64,000 bases of DNA. It comes from Paramecium tetraurelia (taxonomy: Eukaryota > Ciliophora > Oligohymenophorea > Peniculida > Parameciidae). The notes beneath the pieces are model-generated. The model saw only the letters and a program-made list of their open reading frames with translations, made no database searches and was not told where the DNA came from. Of this stretch, positions 88 to 47,721 are shown one piece after another (position 1 is the stretch's first letter; each line of letters begins with the position of its first letter). The DNA is taken from assembly GCF_000165425.1 (NCBI RefSeq), contig NW_001799640.1:9825-73824 (forward strand), given 5' to 3'. A program made the position numbers and the translations under genes.

Positions 88-3000
88 TATCAAAACCAGT
101 AATGCTTACTTTACCATCTCAATTTTTTTACCTCTCATACAAGAACTTATATCAGTTTAAACAAATCTAATTATATATTTATTGTATTATACTAAATCTA
201 CTCCATACTCTGTCCTTCCTATCATTTGATGTCATCTAAACATGGGACAAATTGTAAATATTCAGACACTCCTGCCTTATGAGTACCGGCCTCATGCAAA
301 TCAAAAGGGGCCGCCGGTAATGATAGATAATTACACATCCATATTATTATTATTATTATTAATGTCTACACCAACTTCATTATTTAACTTTATTATGATT
401 TATTAGAGCATCAAACGCAATCTAACTTAGAAAGCATTTTTTTAATTCTATTAAATTTTAATTCTACTTAATATGTTCTATTTCATTTATTATTGTAGTA
501 CCTATAGAAAGTATAAAAAAATAAATAATCTGTATTTTTAATTTAAAAGTACTCTCTTTCATAAATACACTTATAGATTGTATGATATTAATTATTATCT
601 TTTTAGAGTTAGTTTAAAATTACATAACTGCAGTTAGAAGAACTCTTGATATCAATATTAATTTTAATTATTATTATAATCTAATTCTCTTTTTTTAAAA
701 GGTTGATTAAGATATAAATTAATGTGTAATATAGCATGCCCTAAATGCACATATGCCTTTACTTATTAAAAAGCCAGCGAATATAAATCTTGCTTAAACT
801 TTGCTCAGAGAAAATATGCAGCTTGTGTTGCTGAAGTGATAAGTTTACTTATTGTAACTGGCGGATATTATGGCTCATCAAATATATTCAATTTTATGCA
901 GTAAATATAATACTTTATAAAATTGTGGTATGGGATTCCGTCGACATGTAAAAATCAATGACAATCATGAAATAATTCTGTGCTGTTTTGCTAATATTTT
1001 TGGCGCGCACTATAAAATTAAATAGCTGTTATCAATCTATGAAACCTCATATCAGATACGTTGCAAATACTATCATTTAAGAAAAAATAATTGAATTTTG
1101 CTACCATAAGCACTCAACAGTTTATAGATTCGCATATAGAATAGCAATTTACTATGTTGAAAGAATGCAAGCATATAGGCATCGTTAACATAAAAAATAT
1201 CATGCCTACATACTATACAATTATTTTTGATAATTTAACTTATAAGTGGAATATTTATATACTAAATATGTGGATGAAAAATTCCTAAATTACCCATAAT
1301 TGATTAGAAAGAATCAGCTACATTTTCTAAAGGTTTATAAGTTGATTGTCTTAAAACCAAAAACCAAAATATAAGTGGAACAATATCTAACTAATTAAAG
1401 TATTTTAATAAAAGCCACTTCATGCAAACTAAATAACATATAACTTGTAATTCAATCAGGAGCATAATTAGATTATATTATAAATTGTAATTTATTTGCA
1501 GTGAATTAGAATAAGGATATTACCTGATATGTGCGGTATAAAAATCTAAAATTATATCTAAGAAATTATTTCTTAGTGCTTAAAATTAAGGAGGAAAATA
1601 ATCTTCAACTACATTCTAAATTATTTTACATTATCTCCTATATTACCTTTCTTGATCCACATTTAAATTTGTCATTCATCTAACATTTGGTCATCCTTTT
1701 GTAAATGCTTCTAATTCATCCTCATCCTCTTTACTATCCTAGGAATAAAATTCTCAACATTTTATTCTAAATTCTTTATCAAAAATCAGCCTCATTTAGT
1801 ATTCATATATAAATCTATTCTTTTCCCTTGAGAGGTTTCTTCCTGAGTTTCCGATATATTTGGCCATGATTCAATACAGTGGTATTTGCCCGATAAATTA
1901 AAACTTCAATTAATACATGCAAATGAAATGAAACAACAAATCAATATAAAATCTGAGAGTGAAGAACCTTATCAAGATAAAGGAAAACACTAAGGGAAGA
2001 AAGAAACAATAAAATTTTAGAAAATAGTTTTGCAAACTAATTATCAACTATCCTTTTCTCATACTGAGATTCCTATGTTGATTTTTGTTTTTCGTAATAT
2101 CAAATTTTGACTCAACCTAAAAAAAATATACTAGTACCCTAGTTCAGATAAAAAATCGATACCTTGAGGAAATTCTATTAGAAATGTTTTCAAACCAAAG
2201 CAAATTAGAGTTATGTAGCATATAACTGTTCTATGATACTTCACCAGTCAGTAGTAAAGTAAAATAAGTTACCTCCTTAAGTCAAAAGGCTTTCCTTCTG
2301 CACACAGTAGAAAACCTCCTGAATCTGTTTAAGTTGAGTGAATATTAGCATTAACTTTGGAATTACCCTAATGTTGATGGATTTGTCCTCACGATAAGAT
2401 ATAATCGACTAAGCTGTCTTCTCTTAAATTAAATAAATAGTTGTTGTTCAACTTCCTAGCTATTAATAAGTTCAATACAACAGTAAATAACTCCTATCTT
2501 AAGGTTTTCATTAATACTTAATAAATTTCTTGGTATAGGCATGTAGATTTAAATTTGAAAACATCCACATAATTGAACATCTTTTAGATAAATTGATTCT
2601 GAAAGAGGTTTTTGCCCTCATGTAGATTTATTATCAGAATCTAAATTAGTCCTTCATCAATAACGGATTCTTAAGTAAGAGTTCAAAATTTTTAATTCAT
2701 CTTTCAAGAGTTCCATCTTCATCATAATTCTGAAATCAGGATTGATAACAACCTACTAATCGATCAATAATGGAAGATTTTTTATATTGGCTTTCGATTT
2801 AATCTGTAATTCAGGGTTTCTCCGCATTGCAGGGCATGACCAAGTTGTTCCCTCTCATAAATTTTTTATTGATAAAAATTCTACATAATCATTTACACTA
2901 ATTTTTCTTACCAAAAAAGTCTAAACTTCTTTTACATTATCTCATACCTACTATCAACTTTTTTATGACCACTAACTCTTATATAAAAGCAGAAAATGAT

Positions 3001-3584
3001 GTTGATATGCAGGTAGGTAAATACTATAGTGTTTTTAAACTTAGATTTATTTCAAAAATTAAAAACCATTCTACTTCAGTTTTTTGATTCTTAAGCTCTG
3101 TTCTTGCTTTATATTTCACAATAAACCTCCAAACATCTATGAATATTTGAATTCCTTCTTTGAATTCTCATTTTTCGAATATTCTAACCTATTATAATGA
3201 AATCTTAATATAAAGCTTCCAATATACTTGGTTTAAATAAATGGCGTGATCCATTAAACTGAAGCAAGTAGGGAGGAAGAACCATTGACTATTTTAGTCA
3301 AATTTAAATGCATTCTCAATTATATACATATTTATATAGATAATCAACAATCCTTCAATTTTCAATTAGCATACTATACTATTTTTTATGCGAGGATTAA
3401 GATTTCTAATAACTCTAATAACAATCATTTTTGTAAGATGATGATAATAATTTAAAAAACAAGAGAATTTGTATTCAGAATTAATAAGAAAATCTAATTA
3501 TTATTAAATAGAATTGTTTATTTTTGGCATTTAAATCTTAAAATTATTCAAGAGATAAGTTATTAATAAAAATAAAATATAAAC
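88..3584. other. Subtelomeric region without an intact gene
   Basis: About 3.5 kb with no long frame even when TAA and TAG are read as glutamine. Two short plus-strand frames exist: 722-961 (79 codons, with a CPKC pair near its start) and 967-1230 (87 codons, hydrophobic start). Both are near the length expected by chance with a single stop codon. On the minus strand, roughly 1650-2400, there are protein-like fragments (an acidic DSKEDEDELEAFTK stretch among them) broken by TGA and frame changes, which suggests a decayed gene I cannot name. A short ATT run lies at about 342-361. Confidence 0.6.
284..319. repeat. GC-rich inverted repeat in the subtelomere
   Basis: TACCGGC at 284-290 is matched by its exact reverse complement GCCGGTA at 313-319. 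The 22-nt spacer contains AAAAGGGGCC. The patch stands out because everything around it is strongly AT-rich. It could fold as a hairpin in RNA. I do not recognise it as a tRNA, snoRNA or other known RNA. Confidence 0.5.
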
Positions 3585-4763
3585 ATGAAACTCATAATTA
3601 TAGGATTATGTCTTTTAATCTTGGTAACAAGTTAAAGAATTAGTATTAATGATCAAAATTGCAATAAATATTTGCAAAAATTTGGTACTGCAAATAATCC
3701 AGATGGAACTGGAGCAACTAAAATAGCATTTACAGGTGATGTTGCATTTATTACCAACTCAACAAGCGTGAAAGTAAAATTAAGATATTCAGATGTGGAT
3801 TTGTTTAATGATCCAACATACTTTGGTCTTGTTTAAGAAGATGGAAAAAAAGCAGAAACCACATGTCTTGACCTTAAATTATGGAAATTCACTTCAAATA
3901 CTTATTCTGACCCAGTTTAAGTTACAGATTTACCCATAACAAATGAAAACAACAATCAAAAATAATGGAGATATTATTCATTTACTATTCCAGGAGATCA
4001 ATTAGGTTCAAAATTAGTGGTTACTTAAAATAGTGCACAATTTATTTACAAAGGATACTTTGCTATTGCTTATTATGCTGCAGGTACTGATCAAGTTCAA
4101 TATACCTTCTATTTTGAATTCTAAGTTACAGTAGACAAAGCAAGTGGAGCTTCAGTTGATACTGCTTTCAAACCATTAAGTTAATCATCTACTTTAGGCT
4201 GTACTCCTTCAGCTAGTTGTAATACAAAGGCTGATACTGTTTTAAAATGGTGCACAGATTTGACATGCACAAAATTTAGTACTCCAGATTTACATTTGAA
4301 TGATCAATTTGTTTTATTGTAACAAGTAACTACACTTGGAATGGATTACTATTTGGTTGGAACTGAAGTTTGGTACACTGGTAATGGATTGAATAAAAAG
4401 GCCATAATAATATCAATCAATAATTCAAAGAAAGGATAAGTCATTATCCAGTTAAAGGCTGAAATTGCTTGGACCGGAGTTACTATCAAAGCTACCTCAA
4501 CTTTGTCAACAACCTAAGGAAGAAGAATTTTGGTTTAAACCACATTTGATACAGTAAGTGGTGAAACAGAAGAAATTACCTGCATTAAAGCAGAAGGAGC
4601 AGACACTTGTCCCACATGTTAATAAGAAAAAAATGCTAATGGATTTTATAGTGATAATTGTAAAGGAGATGTTGAAGAAGAAGATGATGAAGTGAAACAT
4701 CCAAGTTCTAATGGATTCACATTATTTGGTTTCTTTACTTTGTTGCTATTCGCAATAATATGA
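3585..4763 (+). CDS. Secreted surface protein, GPI-anchor type C-terminus
   Basis: An intronless frame of 392 aa, open from ATG to TGA under code 6. Residues 1-18 (MKLIIIGLCLLILVTSQR) form a clean signal peptide. The body is a soluble, Ser/Thr- and Asn-rich domain with scattered Cys, including paired Cys near residues 205-230 and a CPTC motif near 345. The protein ends in a Ser/Asn/Gly spacer followed by a short hydrophobic tail (GFTLFGFFTLLLFAII) with no cytoplasmic residues after it, the layout of a GPI-anchoring signal. I do not recognise the family. A cell-surface location is inferred from the two terminal signals. It is the first intact gene from the telomere. Confidence 0.88.
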
Positions 4764-5688
4764 GTATCATATATTAAATATCATATTATTAACATTATTT
4801 TTTGCTTACATTTTGAAATAATATTATTTTCACCAAAAATAATAATTATTTTGATTAATTGTGCACAACGATGAGTACACAGATCCATATTATTTTTTTA
4901 GAAATATTTGGATTTTAATATCCTGTAAAAACAACAATTCTATTGTGTATCATAATTATTTGTTGTTTTTGGAGATTAAAATATCCATAAATATCTAATT
5001 GTTCTTTGGTATATTATATACTGAAATTAATAATAAATCTCTAAAAAATATTAAATAAAATGATTTCAAATTTATTTGACTATTTGTATCATAGGGCTAG
5101 TGAATGAAAATTTAAATTACTTGACTTAACCATTAAGGTAAAACAGCAAAAAATAAAATAAATTTCATATATATCATTAGACTAAACCTGTATTTGACTA
5201 GATCACTGAAGTAATAAATAATTTCTTTAAGAGTTTTAGATGTCTTTTGTGCTTGTCTAATAAAATCATACAAAATCGCTGCTTGCACTAGTTGAAAAGT
5301 ATTGTTTTTTTAAATGAGATCTCAACGTTTTTTCTTCAAAAAGTAGAATTGTAATCTATTGAATATTTAAGAATATTTCTATTAAAGAGCAAATATTATT
5401 GATCCTTCACTTAAAAACTTAAAATATAATAAACCTACACCAAGTTGTTATAGGTAAAGTATGATAATGGCAATGATGATAGCCAATTACCATCTCTTTA
5501 ATTGGTAGAGTTAATGCAGATTGACCAACTCTTTTAAGAATCGATTTACTTATATGCACTGAGAAAAAGGATTTGAAAAACCCTAAATTAAAGCAATTTT
5601 AATTTTCAAACAACTACTTCTAATGGATAATAAAATTTCAATTTATTTTATTTTTCTAATTAATATTAAATAAATAAAATTGAAGAAA
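4764..5688. other. Intergenic region with a large imperfect hairpin
   Basis: This is the 0.9 kb between two plus-strand genes. No convincing gene is seen. It holds an imperfect inverted repeat at 4904-4992 (listed separately) and a short stretch near 5500-5530 that resembles a tRNA D-arm but has no matching acceptor or T arm. Confidence 0.6.
4904..4992. repeat. Imperfect inverted repeat, about 33-bp arms
   Basis: The left arm at about 4904-4937 (ATTTGGATTTTAATATCC then TGTAAAAACAACAA) pairs with the right arm at about 4960-4992 (TTGTTGTTTTTGGA then GATTAAAATATCCATAAAT) across a loop of about 22 nt. The innermost 12 bp (AAAAACAACAA/TTGTTGTTTTT) match perfectly; the outer parts match with small gaps. 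It lies 140 bp past the stop of the upstream gene, so it could be a hairpin-forming 3' element or a small non-autonomous element remnant. No target-site duplication was identified. Confidence 0.55.
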
Positions 5689-8600
5689 ATGAAAACTCTA
5701 GATCTTCTATTGTATCAATATTCTCTAATGGTTCAATGCTTCTACATTTGGACTCTGACTGACAAATAATAATTTTATGCGGTATCGTTTACTGGAACAA
5801 TGTAAAGTTTTGAATAGGAAGAAATTATGATGTATGGAATCTGGAGCAGATTCACTCCTTTAAGTACAATTTCATAAACAGGCCCTATTGGAATATTTGA
5901 CAGTCATTGTTTCCATTTGAATTCAGCATTGGAAAGTGAAAACAAAAGGATCAATTTCATGTATTACGATTGCATTAATAAAGAACAAATGGTTGTGAGC
6001 AAATTTATTTAATTTATAAGTAAAGAAGGAAAATAATATAAATTTGAAATTATATTGGATTCAATGAAATACGAGTATTATTGGTATTTTTTTGCTATTC
6101 ACTTGCAACCTCATTAGAATAGTTTTACGTATTATTTACTTTAAGGAGAAAGCATAGTAGATATTCAATCCTTACAGATCTAATTTCCTTATTTAGATGA
6201 AAAACTTATTATTGTGTTTGGAGGTAGTTTAATAATAGATGATCATCAAATTCTTCAAGTTAAAGATACCTCAAAACTTTCATATTTTCCAGGTGAAATT
6301 ACTTTATTAGAGCATTAAAAAGGGTATTTCGAGAAATTAGATATAGATATAATAAGTTACATATAAACTACGTTTGATGGGACTTGCCAATGCTATGAAA
6401 ATTAAATTAAGAATCTGGTTGACGTAGATATTGATTGGTTGGATTATAAAATATTCGCATCTGCAAATGAAAATTGTGATACTTTTGCATTTTAAACTTG
6501 GATTAAAGTTTAATAAATAGTTTCAGATTAAACTGAATTTTTGTATTAGCTATTTAAACTATCAGGTAATTTTGAAAATCAATAATTAAGGGATGATAAT
6601 TTATCTGCTCTCTAAATATTTTACAAATTTTCGAAAGAAATTTATTAAATAAAATTTACAACATATAGTTATACAATCCCATATTACAATTTAGATTTCT
6701 CTAAAAATCCATTTTTGAATGAGTATTTATATGATTTACCTAATATCTATTTATGGCAATTTGTGACTGTAATCTTAAAAAACAATATCATTGAAATGAA
6801 GGTCACCTTATTTGAGGGTAAGAATTAACATATTTTTTTTCGCTCCTAACTGGTTAACTAATTTCATATTGTATAATACAAATTATAATATGGAAATATC
6901 TTGCAATCTTCTAACAATTATTTAAAAGTGTAATTGAGGGGATCAAAATTTTTTAATTGTGTCTCGGATGATCAGGTGAATTAAGAAATAAATTGCCATT
7001 TCAGTTGCAAAGACTGTGATGGCCCCACTAATTTAGATTGTTTATCTTGTCCCGAAACATCTAGACGTATTTATATTCCAACACATAAGGCGTGTATCTG
7101 CCCTTATGACACAATTGATGATGGGGATTGTAAAGATTACCAAAGTTTGAATCTGATAATGTAACAAGATTTTGAATAAAATTGTAAACAAGGGTATTTT
7201 GAATATAGATCATATTGTTATAAATGGTATAAATTAAAATTAGACTAGTCCTTCTATCATAAGGGATAATTTGATTACTTGCCTTGAATGTATTACAGAC
7301 CCTAAAAATTGGATGGATAATCCTTATTGCCAGACTAATCTATTTTTAGACGATGTCGGAAGTCCAGCTGAATTCATAAAGGATCTCAGTTAAACTTATT
7401 ATATCTTTGACGGTGATAATTTAAAGGCATGCAATCATAAATAAAATAAGAACTTATAAACCATTGATGAAGTATTTGAAGACTATCAGTTAGAAACTAA
7501 TGAAATACTTTCTATTTGTTCAAATTCAAAAGATCCTTAAAAATGTTTACCTTGTAATTTTATCGGTTGTGCGATATGTGGTGTTATTTCAACAACGTAG
7601 ATCTGTTTGCAATGTGATTTTGGTTATGATTTGAGAGATGGATTATGTGTAGAATTAATAATGGGGTAAATGGAATAAGAAAAATGTGTTGCTCCATATT
7701 ATATTACTTCAGAAAAGAAGTGCCGCCTATGTTAAATAGAGAACTGTTAGTATTGCTTTGAATATGAAAGCAATGACTTAACTTATTGCACACTATATAA
7801 GGACTTTTAATACTTTAAAATTGATGAATTCCATAAAGTTGGATGTGCATTGTGTTAGGAAGGCTTTATTTTTGATTTTGTCTAAGGAGGATGCCATTAT
7901 TAAAAACCATAAACAATTAATTGTTTGCGAGCTTTTAAGGATTTATAAAATAGAGAGATTTGCACATTATCTGCAGTGGATGATTTTAATATTGCACCTG
8001 AAATAATAAATTGTCAAAAATATATCTCAAATTGTAAATAATGCTATTAAACTACATTATCTGTTATTAAATGTATTATTTGTGAAGATGGCTATTCAAG
8101 CTCGATTATTACTGGTCATTGCTAGAAATGTAATTCTAACTATGCCAAGTATTGTATAGAGGGAGATTTTTACAAGTTAGATTCATGGATGTAGTTGCTT
8201 TAGAGCTTCTTAATGTAGTTCTTGCCAAATAGATATATGTATTCTGAATCCATATCGATATTCACTAATTATGATTTACCAATAAAATGCATGGAAGGAT
8301 ATGAGCTCAATAAGTTTTTTTGCAAGAAATATTGTGACAGCAATTGTTCTGTTTGCAAAAAAATGGGAAATCCTTAAGAGGGTTTTTAATGTGCGAAATG
8401 CTTCTTAAATTATTATATGGAACCAGTTAGAGTCAGGGATTAAGGAAAATGTATTGCTTGTGCACAACTATGTTAGGTGTGCCAACCTAGAACGACAGAT
8501 GAGATTGAAGTATATACTATTAATAAATATTTAGAGAATTAATCCATTGTTTGTTAATAAATTGGAATATTCAACCTATACTATGAAATGTATTAAATCT

Positions 8601-43166: not shown

Positions 43167-43877
43167 TCATTCTTTCTTTGCGTGTTCTTCAGTCCAATAT
43201 TGTTAGAGCTTTTGGCTTCCGTGATCAGGAACCATAGTTGGTTTTCCTGGTTTCCATGAGGCTGGGCATACCTCACCGTGTTCGTCAGTGAATTAAAAGG
43301 CTTATACCAATCTAGAAATTGAATCTACGTCATTCATTACCTCAATGTTTCATCGACATTTCTTCCGACTGGCAAATCATTGACTGAATAATGTCTGAGA
43401 ACACCATTCTTGTCAACTATGAATGTACCTCTGAAGGCCACTCCGAAATCTCCATCTTAAGGATCATCGATCAGAACTCCATAATCAGCAGAAATAGTCT
43501 AGAATATTCTTTACTAAATTGGCTACCTTTGCGATGTCAGCAATCAAAGGAATTTGCATATCGCCCAATCCTCCTTGATTTCTTGGGGTTTGGCAATACT
43601 TCATGTGAGAGAAACGTGAATCGACTGAAACAGCAGCAACCTCGCATCCAATCTTTCTGAATTCCTATGTGTTAAGAATGAAATAGGTACTTCAGCTCTG
43701 TCAGAAAAAGCGATGATCTCAGTTGGGCAAACAAAAGTGGAGTCCAATGGATAAAAGAATAAGACCAAGTATTTGCCTTTGAAATCGAGAAAGTGACACC
43801 TTCTTGAATGATCCATTCAAGTAAGCTTGGGCTGTGAAATCTGGAGCGGGTTTTCTAATTTTCAGCTTTTAACTCAT
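43167..43877 (-). CDS. Typical 2-Cys peroxiredoxin, one frame break
   Basis: Introns at 43665-43690, 43499-43526 and 43312-43340. About 208 aa. [20 protein letters not shown] opens the fold; the peroxidatic site is [14 protein letters not shown], then [47 protein letters not shown], and the resolving Cys lies in [16 protein letters not shown]. It reduces hydrogen peroxide using thioredoxin, probably in the cytosol because there is no targeting signal. After intron removal the frame is 3n+1: one extra base at 43787 separates VSLS from DFKGKY. This is a sequence error or a recent inactivation. A decayed copy in the opposite orientation begins less than 100 bp away. Confidence 0.93.
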
Positions 43878-44728: not shown

Positions 44729-47721
44729 TCATTTTTCTGTGAGTTCACGGTAACCCTTCCAGTTATTCCTAAGATAGGGTTCCTCTTTGATAACTCTTAG
44801 CAGGGTGTTTGAAGGACCGTCTCTGTAATTAGGCAAGAAGTTCTAAGAAACATTTGAAATATAAAAATACCAAGGTTTCTTCAAATATAGATTTGGCCTT
44901 ATCCCAATCTCCAGACAGATAGCAATGGAATCCCTCGGTCCATTTTGAATAGAATTCCTAAATCAAATAGAATATGTTTACTTTTCTAAAAAGAGCTCGT
45001 GATATTTTAATGTTGGGATCTTTGGTCCAAGTTTCAGATATTAGAACATGACTTTTAAGAACAGCCTATTTGAGTTTGTCTCTTTTCATTCTTTTTAATA
45101 CTTTTTATTTTTTTTTTAATTTCGATTGATCTGACTCTGAGAGATGAACTTACTTAACCTTGTCTTTTTTATGTGGATCCAGTATAGTTTTAGCCTTGTG
45201 TTCCTTTCTAAGCAAGGAGTCAACATTTAAATCCACAGTGTAAATGTCCATAGGTTCAATGCTGCCCTTGACTGTAACCCTGTCTATGTGTCTTAGATTC
45301 TTCTGGGTGACCTTAGTGGCAACATCCCTCAATTATCCAGAGATGAGAATCATGGATCCAAACTGTTTGGTGGCTGCCTCCAATCTAGAAGCCATGTTAA
45401 CATTAGGACTCAAATATGAAGCATCTATCTTGTATTCAGATCCTATGGCTCCTTCTATAGCCCAGCCAACATGCAATCCAAATCCCATCTTCACCGAATA
45501 ATTGGGTATTCTATTGTTCAATCCTTCATGCTATTTGTATTTCTATAATTTTTGGGATAGAGTAACATTGGTGATGATGGTAACAAAGGACAAGATGGCC
45601 ATGTCTGCGATTTGGGCCACGTGTTCATAGGGTTTGAGACTCAGTTTTCCATCCTCATCTTGATAATAGTCATTCTCTGCATACTTCCAAACCAATAAGA
45701 AAGCATCACCAATGTTTTTGTTAGCACTTCCAGAGAATTAATCCACTACTCCATGCACGATTTCAGCAATCTCATTCACAAATACCATTACATCCTATTA
45801 TAATACTTCTGTGGCATCAGTGAAATTTCTAATGTCACAAAATCCAAATATGGCCATCACCTTTTTGCCTGGCAACATCGGATTGATCGATGCATTGGCT
45901 CCCATATTTTAGGCAATGATCTAAGAACCTGCTTCTCCAAACCCAAGTGCTAACAAAGTTCCTATCTTCACTATCAGTTTCTACAAAATGACCGTTTCCA
46001 ATCTCTCATCCTCCTTGTCTTCCAATGCCTTCATCTCTCCATTTTCAATCATCTAAATAAATGCCTTATTCTCCTCTTCTTGGGCTGCAACCAACGGGTT
46101 CTCTGAGATCTTCTTGACAGTTTCCAACATCTTCTCGATTGGTGTCAGAATCAAATCTTAGACATCCTTACTGAACAACACAGCAGCAACTGAGAGCACA
46201 ATGGAAACAAAAATAGTTCTTACAATTGATAAGATGGCATTCAATTCATCGTCAGCTACTGTATTGGAAATGGATACAGCAGTTTGATCATCAGAGTCAG
46301 TGGAGGTGTAATATTATAAAGAGGCTGTTCTGTAATCCTCATATTCATATTAATTTTCCTGTTCTGAGGGATGAAGGATTGTTGAATTGATTTTAAAGAA
46401 AACCAATCCAGTTCTCAGAGGTTCATGATAAACAATAAAATCCTTGATTAGGTAATTATAGATTTCAGTGTCTTTGGACCAATACTAAATTGCTTATAAG
46501 CCTGTAGTGAAACTAACATTAGCATCTCGATAAGTACTGAGATTAAGAATGGGCACACTGAATAAGATTAACATCACAATTGTAATGACTCTTTTGTTTG
46601 TTAATTCTGTTAGCTCCTTCCCAATGTTGGTTTCTTTGACCTCTCCCTCATCCGAAATCCTTTATAACGGTTTTCCACCACTTTGGATGATAGATTTCCT
46701 CTTCTGAATGATGGTTTAAGATTGAATTTATCCGGACAATACTATTTTCCTGGTTTGTCTTCGCTGAAACCTGTGTTCGATTTCAGTGTTCAATTGACTG
46801 CTCTATCTGTTTTATAGCATGATTGATGTCCTTTGCTGTTGAGTCTTCTGTATGTGTGGTTACTCCTCCTGATCTCTAACATGTCTCTCAGATGAATCTA
46901 CTGACTTTTAAGAGGAGACATTGTCATTGTTTTGTTGTTGGTGATTTGATTGTTCTTACTCTTATTGGTTCTGATCCATCAAGTTCTCATCCTTCATTTC
47001 CTCGGCCAATAGTTTTTCTGCTTCCTTCTCCAAGGACTGTTTCGCGTGCTTGTACAATTTAGACAACCGAACAAGTCGAACCACTCTCACGATCCTCCCA
47101 GCTCTCGTTCCCACTCTTGAGGCTCTCCCTGCTCTATATTCAATCTCTAATAATATGTTAACCTCGCCAATGAAACTGCACTCAAGGCTGCACCGCCACC
47201 ACTTCCAAACATTGCCTCGTTGACCCATCCGATGTCCAACAGCATTGAAACGGTTGACAACAAATCCAACCAAAAAAAGAATCCAAGAATGTATCCGTCC
47301 TTGATAGAATGAAAAACCTTTTTACTTTACAAATTGAAGCCAACACTATTTCAACCAAAAATAATCCCATGCAGATGGCTGTAATCACCCAAAAAGCAGC
47401 ATCTCCATCCTAATTCATACGAATTGCATACTTTGTTTGTTGACAACACTCTCACATCATCACCAAATAATGCATAAATCGTTACCACAGTCATAAATAT
47501 CATATAATTGAAACTTTCTAGAAACTGCTCGATCCTTTTCTAAAATTGTGACAATTATCTACTTTGACCCCAAAATGGTTGTCTGAAGATGACTTGCTCG
47601 ATCGGGTTCCATAATTCATAGACCTCCGATGTGTGATGGTTCTCGAGGCATATGGTCCCTCATTAACCCCACTCTTCTTATTCGGAGATGAAGCATCCAT
47701 TTTGGAATCAGCCTAGTTCAT
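44729..47721 (-). CDS. Voltage-sensor domain fused to class III adenylyl cyclase
   Basis: Introns at 47540-47562, 47410-47431, 47300-47325, 47134-47162, 44958-44981 (24 nt, stopless) and 44843-44870 give exactly 947 codons (946 aa). Voltage sensor: S1 NYMIFMTVVTIYALFGDD, S2 FWVITAICMGLFLVEIVL, S3 GFFFWLDLLSTVSMLLDI and S4 RAGRASRVGTRAGRIVRVVR with Arg at nearly every third position. A Gln-rich linker, TM5 (about 340-355), a roughly 110-residue extracellular loop, TM6 (about 470) and a HAMP-like TPIEKMLETVKKISENP lead to the cyclase: FGFCDIRNFT and KNIGDAFLL (metal Asps), GSEYKID and NVNMASRLEAAT (Lys/Asp adenine pair). The C-terminus has a helical repeat and GYRELTEK. Voltage-sensor cyclases are known in Paramecium and Tetrahymena; no GYG-type pore is visible here. 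Confidence 0.93.

Follow-up and report, generated by a model that had tools for sequence, protein, structure and literature searches.

The closest described relatives of the protein analysed here are the adenylyl cyclase/K+-channel (AC/K+-channel) fusions of alveolates (Paramecium, Tetrahymena and, in Plasmodium, AC-alpha), for which six transmembrane helices (TMs) with an S4, a GXG motif after TMD6 and a C-terminal class III cyclase are described (PMC3283738, PMC4588038, PMC5746546); with the GXG motif placed after TMD6, the architecture is reported to be radically unlike that of canonical K+ channels (PMC3283738). In Paramecium tetraurelia all sixteen adenylyl cyclase genes appear to encode both a cyclase and a K+-channel domain, as stated with reference to Weber et al. 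2004 (PMC4588038), and the Paramecium cyclase is still described as a channel-enzyme fusion on one 1992 conductance study. In the oomycete Phytophthora, pore-less cyclases with a voltage-sensor domain (VSD) were described in 2025, with counterparts in at least 90 other organisms, and were likened by the authors to the voltage-sensing phosphatase (VSP) (PMC12223298); by description, PPTG_13136 and PPTG_13761 share with the protein analysed here an N-terminal VSD (Ion_trans), a C-terminal cyclase and the lack of pore-helix homology, and differ from it in their oomycete origin and in having 5 and 3 TMs by the authors' count (PMC12223298). For oomycete relatives, a VSP-like, pore-less reading has thereby been published (PMC12223298). 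Ci-VSP likewise combines a voltage sensor with a cytosolic enzyme and has no pore; that enzyme is a lipid phosphatase, whereas the protein analysed here has two extra TMs and a long linker between S4 and the cyclase, and carries a cyclase after TM5-TM6 instead of a PTEN-type phosphatase after S4.

The gene lies in a stretch of 64,000 nucleotides of P. tetraurelia DNA (contig NW_001799640.1), hereafter the window. The original prediction had contrasted its product with the known ciliate cyclases bearing K+-channel domains; by every feature that could be tested, the window protein turned out to be one of these, and no difference from the alveolate family was found against the published descriptions. 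In particular, it has an Arg-rich S4 in an N-terminal TM domain and a single C-terminal class III cyclase, and it is filed in this family because its GFG at residues 559-561 lies after TM6, the site given for the GXG motif (PMC3283738). The gene, placed by the published description of the family, may be one of the published Paramecium genes or an orthologue; it is an ordinary member of a known family, of which the bacterial branch presented below was not found described. We put at about 0.65 the probability that the window protein is a membrane adenylyl cyclase of the alveolate family in which the enzyme itself reads the membrane potential.

Gene structure, voltage sensor and cyclase domain

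Under the ciliate code (TAA and TAG read as Gln, TGA as stop), the spliced frame of the window gene comprises 953 codons, 19 of them TAA and 12 TAG, with no internal TGA (Table 1); both ends of the gene had been placed correctly by the original prediction. The same five introns were returned by a spliced-alignment program written for the analysis, and their positions, after residues 18, 88, 116, 162 and 916, are common to the window gene and its nearest paralogue (L039), which has an additional one at 879. The domain order of the encoded protein is an S1-S4 voltage sensor, a long linker, TM5, a loop of 95 residues, TM6 and a class III cyclase. As for the neighbourhood, a pyridine-nucleotide disulphide oxidoreductase gene (glutathione/thioredoxin reductase-like, as judged by eye) runs on the plus strand from about 47892, head-to-head with the cyclase gene across a gap of about 170 bp, and a stretch at 43601-43816 on the minus strand, downstream of the cyclase gene, is peroxiredoxin-like by its motif.

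Table 1. Features of the window gene (window positions; residues of the encoded protein) and of the three bacterial genes (positions within each locus)
Feature	Position	Strand	Remarks
Whole cyclase gene	44729..47721	(-)	Spliced model, ciliate code; six exons, 953 aa; ATG at 47721, TGA finishing at 44729
Five GT-AG introns, 22-29 nt	47667-47642, 47431-47410, 47325-47300, 47162-47134, 44870-44843	(-)	
Voltage-sensor domain S1-S4, residues 53-190	47049..47539, introns included	(-)	Pfam Ion_trans; family profile against PDB; F105, E108, D128
S4 helix: R162, R165, R168, R172, R175, R178, R181, R184, K187, K190	47049..47164	(-)	Sequence; ladder test
Gln-rich linker, residues 191-335 (145 residues)	46614..47048	(-)	Taken as cytosolic; 68% identity to L039, 25-35% to L040, L046 and L052
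TM5, residues 336-358	46545..46613	(-)	Hydropathy; 23/23 identical in L039
Loop, residues 359-453	46260..46544	(-)	Taken as extracellular; N-glycosylation-type motifs at 359, 367 and 411; filter motif absent
TM6, residues 454-478	46185..46259	(-)	Hydropathy
TM6-to-cyclase segment, residues 479-585 (107 residues)	45864..46184	(-)	95% identical in L039; HAMP match absent
GFGEAG, residues 559-564	45927..45944	(-)	Site of the GXG motif described in the literature
Class III cyclase domain, residues 586-800	45219..45863	(-)	Pfam Guanylate_cyc (PF00211), E 3.4e-12, residues 593-794; single stretch
C-terminal tail, residues 801-953, ending in GYRELTEK	44732..45218	(-)	Alignments of all 16 ciliate models extend to residue 953
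L059, Candidatus Poribacteria	2147-4519	(+)	VSD-cyclase, 790 aa
L061, Candidatus Poribacteria	2189-4519	(+)	VSD-cyclase, 776 aa
L080, third Poribacteria copy	3826-6435	(-)	869 aa; 47% identical to L059

The four TM helices with an Arg-rich S4 that had been claimed for the N-terminal region are borne out by a Pfam match and by the spacing of the basic residues. In a scan restricted to the N-terminal 217 residues, Ion_trans matches with E 1.8e-7 over profile positions 6-124 of 241, that is, with its S1-S4 half only; in a scan of the full 953 residues it is unlisted at E up to 1. A profile of six VSDs of the family matches the voltage sensor of CaV1.1 in the PDB with E 2.2e-4 (the fourth sensor, as judged by position), and the window protein has F105 and E108 in S2 and D128 in S3. 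The basic residues of S4 form, together with K193, a ladder of 11 steps with a spacing of 3-4; among 20000 shuffles of the whole protein, 11 steps were reached in none and 10 steps in 7, and a separate earlier set of 20000 shuffles likewise contained none reaching 11. The first half of S4 is Ala/Gly-rich. Compared with a voltage-gated K+ channel, the window protein has the S1-S4 voltage sensor and lacks an S5-P-S6 region with a TxG[YF]G filter, the Ion_trans match ending at profile position 124.

The cyclase domain keeps D595, K634, D638, N741 and R745 in an alignment with the photoactivated adenylyl cyclases (5mbh, 4yus), which are its best matches in the PDB and the closest solved cyclase domains by sequence; these are soluble proteins with a light sensor, BLUF, in place of the VSD. 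We take D595 and D638 to be the metal residues and K634 and S734 to occupy the adenine positions; with the roles so assumed, the two metal Asp, the Asn/Arg and the adenine-binding Lys of class III are all present. Of the intact core proposed originally, both metal Asps stand, and the supposed Lys/Asp adenine pair is actually Lys634/Ser734, which resembles class IIIb adenylyl cyclases; the second adenine position is Thr in bPAC and Asp in mammalian cyclases. The tail ends with G[YF]RELTEK in all of the eight ciliate sequences compared at this point, and with GYRALTEK or GYRSLDSK in the bacterial relatives.

A family of sixteen genes and the search for a pore

Searching the 69-Mb genome at the protein level returned 55 matches; these group into at least 16 genes of the same design, the number being a lower bound since 48 of 65 candidates were scored; it equals the count published for P. 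tetraurelia (PMC4588038). Together with the genetic code, the short introns and the genome size, this gene count is in keeping with a Paramecium. From 20 regions taken, 15 gave spliced models that start at residue 2-56 of the window protein and end at its residue 953, with 41-82% identity, and five (L054-L058) contained other cyclases and were dropped. The Pfam cyclase family PF00211 alone under-counts these cyclases, as its search of the genome listed two of the 16 genes (on C229 and C10), the window gene being absent from the list. All 16 genes have 9-11 basic residues in the S4 stretch; the S3 Asp is kept in every model and the S2 Glu in 15 of the 16, the exception being L043 (G000:C204), where the frame is disturbed in S2 and the conserved Glu is lost in a model bridged with a 20-nt intron, a disturbance whose cause may be decay, a genuine intron or a faulty assembly. 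The window protein and L039 are 82% identical overall, 96% in the cyclase and 85% in the VSD. Among the most divergent parts is the TM5-TM6 loop, whose length ranges from 93 to 128 residues across the 16 genes and whose identity between the window protein and L040, L046 and L052 is 24-25%.

Hydropathy supports the two further TM helices that had been placed around this loop, the loop itself having 95 residues in the window protein rather than the predicted 110 or so. The predicted absence of a GYG or GxGD filter was upheld: G[YFL]G, TxG[YFL]G and GxGD do not occur between TM5 and TM6 in the window protein, nor in any of the 16 ciliate genes. A missing pore exon is ruled out: in the window a single open exon runs from TM5 to TM6, and none of the paralogues has a filter in this region. 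A domain search for a pore or a Cache/PAS domain had been proposed as a check on the original prediction; Pfam shows neither in the window protein, with no pore, Cache, PAS or HAMP family match from before TM5 to the cyclase, and in the loop neither Pfam nor NCBIfam recognises a sensor domain, be it Cache, PAS or another. The HAMP-like linker that had been assumed after the last TM was dropped, as Pfam HAMP at E up to 1 matched none of the nine family members scanned. The pore family Ion_trans_2 served as a control: with 150 of the 305 candidates scored, the genome contains at least 150 matches to it. Of those scored, 11 lie on contigs bearing these 16 genes, and none overlaps a family gene. 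The best Ion_trans_2 match of the genome (G000:C13:281485-281733) sits 928 bp from one cyclase gene, the shortest such distance among the scored matches, and, of these, the ones on C181 and C166 are each about 4.4 kb from cyclase genes. Two structure predictions, based only on the sequences of the window protein and of its bacterial relatives L059 and L061, had mean pLDDT values of 31.6 and 35.4, too low for use.

Overlooked in the original prediction was the GFG at residues 559-561, which lies after TM6, where the literature places the GXG motif of the family. GFG[ED]AG is found just ahead of the cyclase in 16/16 ciliate genes and in 3/3 bacterial relatives, and a further copy of the family (L060, see below) reads AFGEAG at this position. 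With 81 residues from where TM6 ends to the start of GFG, and about 30 from there to the cyclase core, the motif would be cytosolic, provided that the cyclase is. By hydropathy, a hydrophobic stretch directly precedes it in the window protein; in L059 and L061 this stretch is below the cut-off, the same cut-off that also missed S3. Both the AFGEAG of L060 and the place of the motif next to the cyclase argue against GFG as a selectivity filter, and we favour, by inference, the view of GFGEAG as part of a helix leading into the catalytic domain. No report of the motif letters GFGEAG was found by text search of the literature.

Bacterial relatives in Poribacteria

A collection of bacterial and archaeal genomes, described as covering 84,980 species, was scanned with an alignment of 91 cyclase residues, which yielded 139 pattern matches and nine relatives, a first scan with a longer alignment having given 22 pattern matches and no relative; the yield is a lower bound, since the scan patterns are unable to match L080. 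Six of the nine relatives (L062-L067) are distant cyclases and were dropped. L059 and L061 present the full design in a single intronless frame of the standard code: S1-S4 with a ladder in S4, TM5, a loop of 154 residues, TM6, GFGEAG, the cyclase and a tail that ends in YRALTEK. A search of the phylum (E up to 1e-20) found a VSD-cyclase in 3 of 84 Poribacteria genomes. The VSD, the two TMs and the cyclase are kept in the three bacterial relatives, and the loop and linker differ; the loops have 154-228 residues (n=3), and TAGLG is found in the loop of L059 and is absent from those of L061 and L080. L080 is above the Pfam cut-offs for Guanylate_cyc and Ion_trans; in L059 and L061, Ion_trans is below its cut-off and Guanylate_cyc is unlisted at E up to 0.1, and these two are called cyclases because of their 64-65% identity to the 91-residue stretch of the window protein and their aligned catalytic residues.

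All three bacterial genes lie between a gene for a sugar-type ABC binding protein and two permease genes, which are followed by an ATPase gene; these neighbours were named by eye. The binding protein is present in 70 of the 84 Poribacteria genomes (E up to 1e-120), and among the best 30 of these loci 25 have the permease directly after it (within about 40-460 bp) with no cyclase match, three have the cyclase, and two, which end early, have neither. This pattern of occupied and empty operons speaks for an inserted gene rather than for contamination. The Poribacteria module may have come from a eukaryote.

L060 (JAIYDP010000293.1, a Verrucomicrobiaceae MAG) has the VSD and cyclase of the family but broken frames and neighbours, and was not counted as bacterial; its contig is probably a eukaryotic contaminant in the MAG, and a copy of this type occurs in 1 of 387 genomes of its phylum. 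Pieces resembling an aldehyde dehydrogenase and a kinase are also found on this contig. Two scans for viral relatives returned none. With an E cut-off of 1e-30, the bacterial protein was also without a match in two further phyla, those of G472 (396 genomes) and G473 (398 genomes), a result that is uninformative, the searches having no known positive. Among the titles and abstract openings listed from open-licence PMC papers, no report of a bacterial VSD-cyclase was found.

Proposed voltage control of the cyclase and its alternatives

If the enzyme itself reads the membrane potential, the movement of S4 would be relayed by the linker, and then by the bundle of TM5 and TM6, to residues 479-585 ahead of the cyclase, and a shift of this segment would alter the packing of the cyclase dimer, hence the rate of cAMP synthesis; GFGEAG would then be part of the helix into the catalytic domain, and ligands of the loop may act too. 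Hyperpolarisation of Paramecium is described as going with raised cAMP (PMC4588038, PMC12414865), and by analogy with this published physiology hyperpolarisation would act through the window protein to raise cAMP and speed swimming. Consistent with such a transducer are the homology of the VSD and of the cyclase, the 16 genes of the same design, the lack of a filter in all of them and of any overlap with the scored Ion_trans_2 matches, the retention of the S3 Asp and S2 Glu, the low dN relative to L039, the bacterial copies that keep VSD, two TMs and cyclase, and the motif beside the cyclase. Against it stand the 1992 K+ conductance study, the Ala/Gly-rich first half of S4, the Ion_trans match obtained with the N-terminal part alone, the hydrophobic stretch before GFG, which is also expected of a re-entrant pore, and the conservation of GFG. 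Of the direct voltage-to-cAMP transducer proposed originally, the anatomy and the pore-less reading hold, and voltage control itself is plausible.

More tentatively, and at rather less than even odds, it is proposed that the AC/K+-channel fusions in general are direct voltage-to-cAMP transducers and not channels, and that the module entered Poribacteria, a eukaryote being its most likely donor, and came to sit in a sugar-type ABC operon, with a possible role in coupling cAMP to nutrient uptake and membrane potential. If so, there would be an intronless, standard-code bacterial protein on which the old channel question is testable; if voltage gates the cyclase directly, the family would link membrane potential to cAMP within one protein and could serve as the basis of a cAMP tool under electrical control. 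In the comparison of the 16 genes, the motif held to form the pore seems to lie in the wrong place for a filter, which challenges the "channel" label.

That label corresponds to the published interpretation of a true channel-enzyme fusion (PMC3283738, PMC5746546, PMC10651576, PMC8964087), in which an unconventional pore, formed with the GXG after TM6, would conduct K+, and the cyclase would be regulated by this current or by the voltage change that it causes; we consider it unlikely for the window protein, although a 1992 study reports a K+ conductance of the purified Paramecium cyclase, as described in PMC12414865, PMC5746546 and others. Channel function is indicated by a single study only according to one account (PMC3283738), and in another the channel activity of the Plasmodium relative is given as unconfirmed (PMC5746546). 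The constancy of GFG[ED]AG in ciliate and bacterial genes and the hydrophobic segment preceding it in the window protein would suit such a pore; its distance from TM6 and closeness to the cyclase core, which make it cytosolic if the cyclase is, do not, and the absence of TxG[YFL]G between TM5 and TM6, the AFG of L060 and the lack of overlap of any of the 16 genes with scored Ion_trans_2 matches also count against it. Less probable still is a receptor-type cyclase, whose TM5-TM6 loop would sense a ligand while the VSD only tunes or tethers the enzyme: the TM-loop-TM layout, the N-glycosylation-type motifs and a loop that diverges in sequence and in length, in ciliates as in bacteria, as different ligands would predict, agree with it, and against it we know of no ligand and Pfam and NCBIfam give no Cache, PAS or other sensor domain. 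The loop, which varies in length and sequence and has no Pfam domain, may nonetheless be a ligand sensor, the alternative named in the original prediction.

By far the least probable is that the window gene is a degenerate or non-functional paralogue. The disturbed S2 frame in the model of L043 suggests that decay may occur in the family; the window gene, by contrast, is intact with all catalytic residues present, and in comparison with L039 it has a dN of 0.023 over the cyclase, where dS is saturated, and of 0.098 over the VSD, where dS is 3.2.
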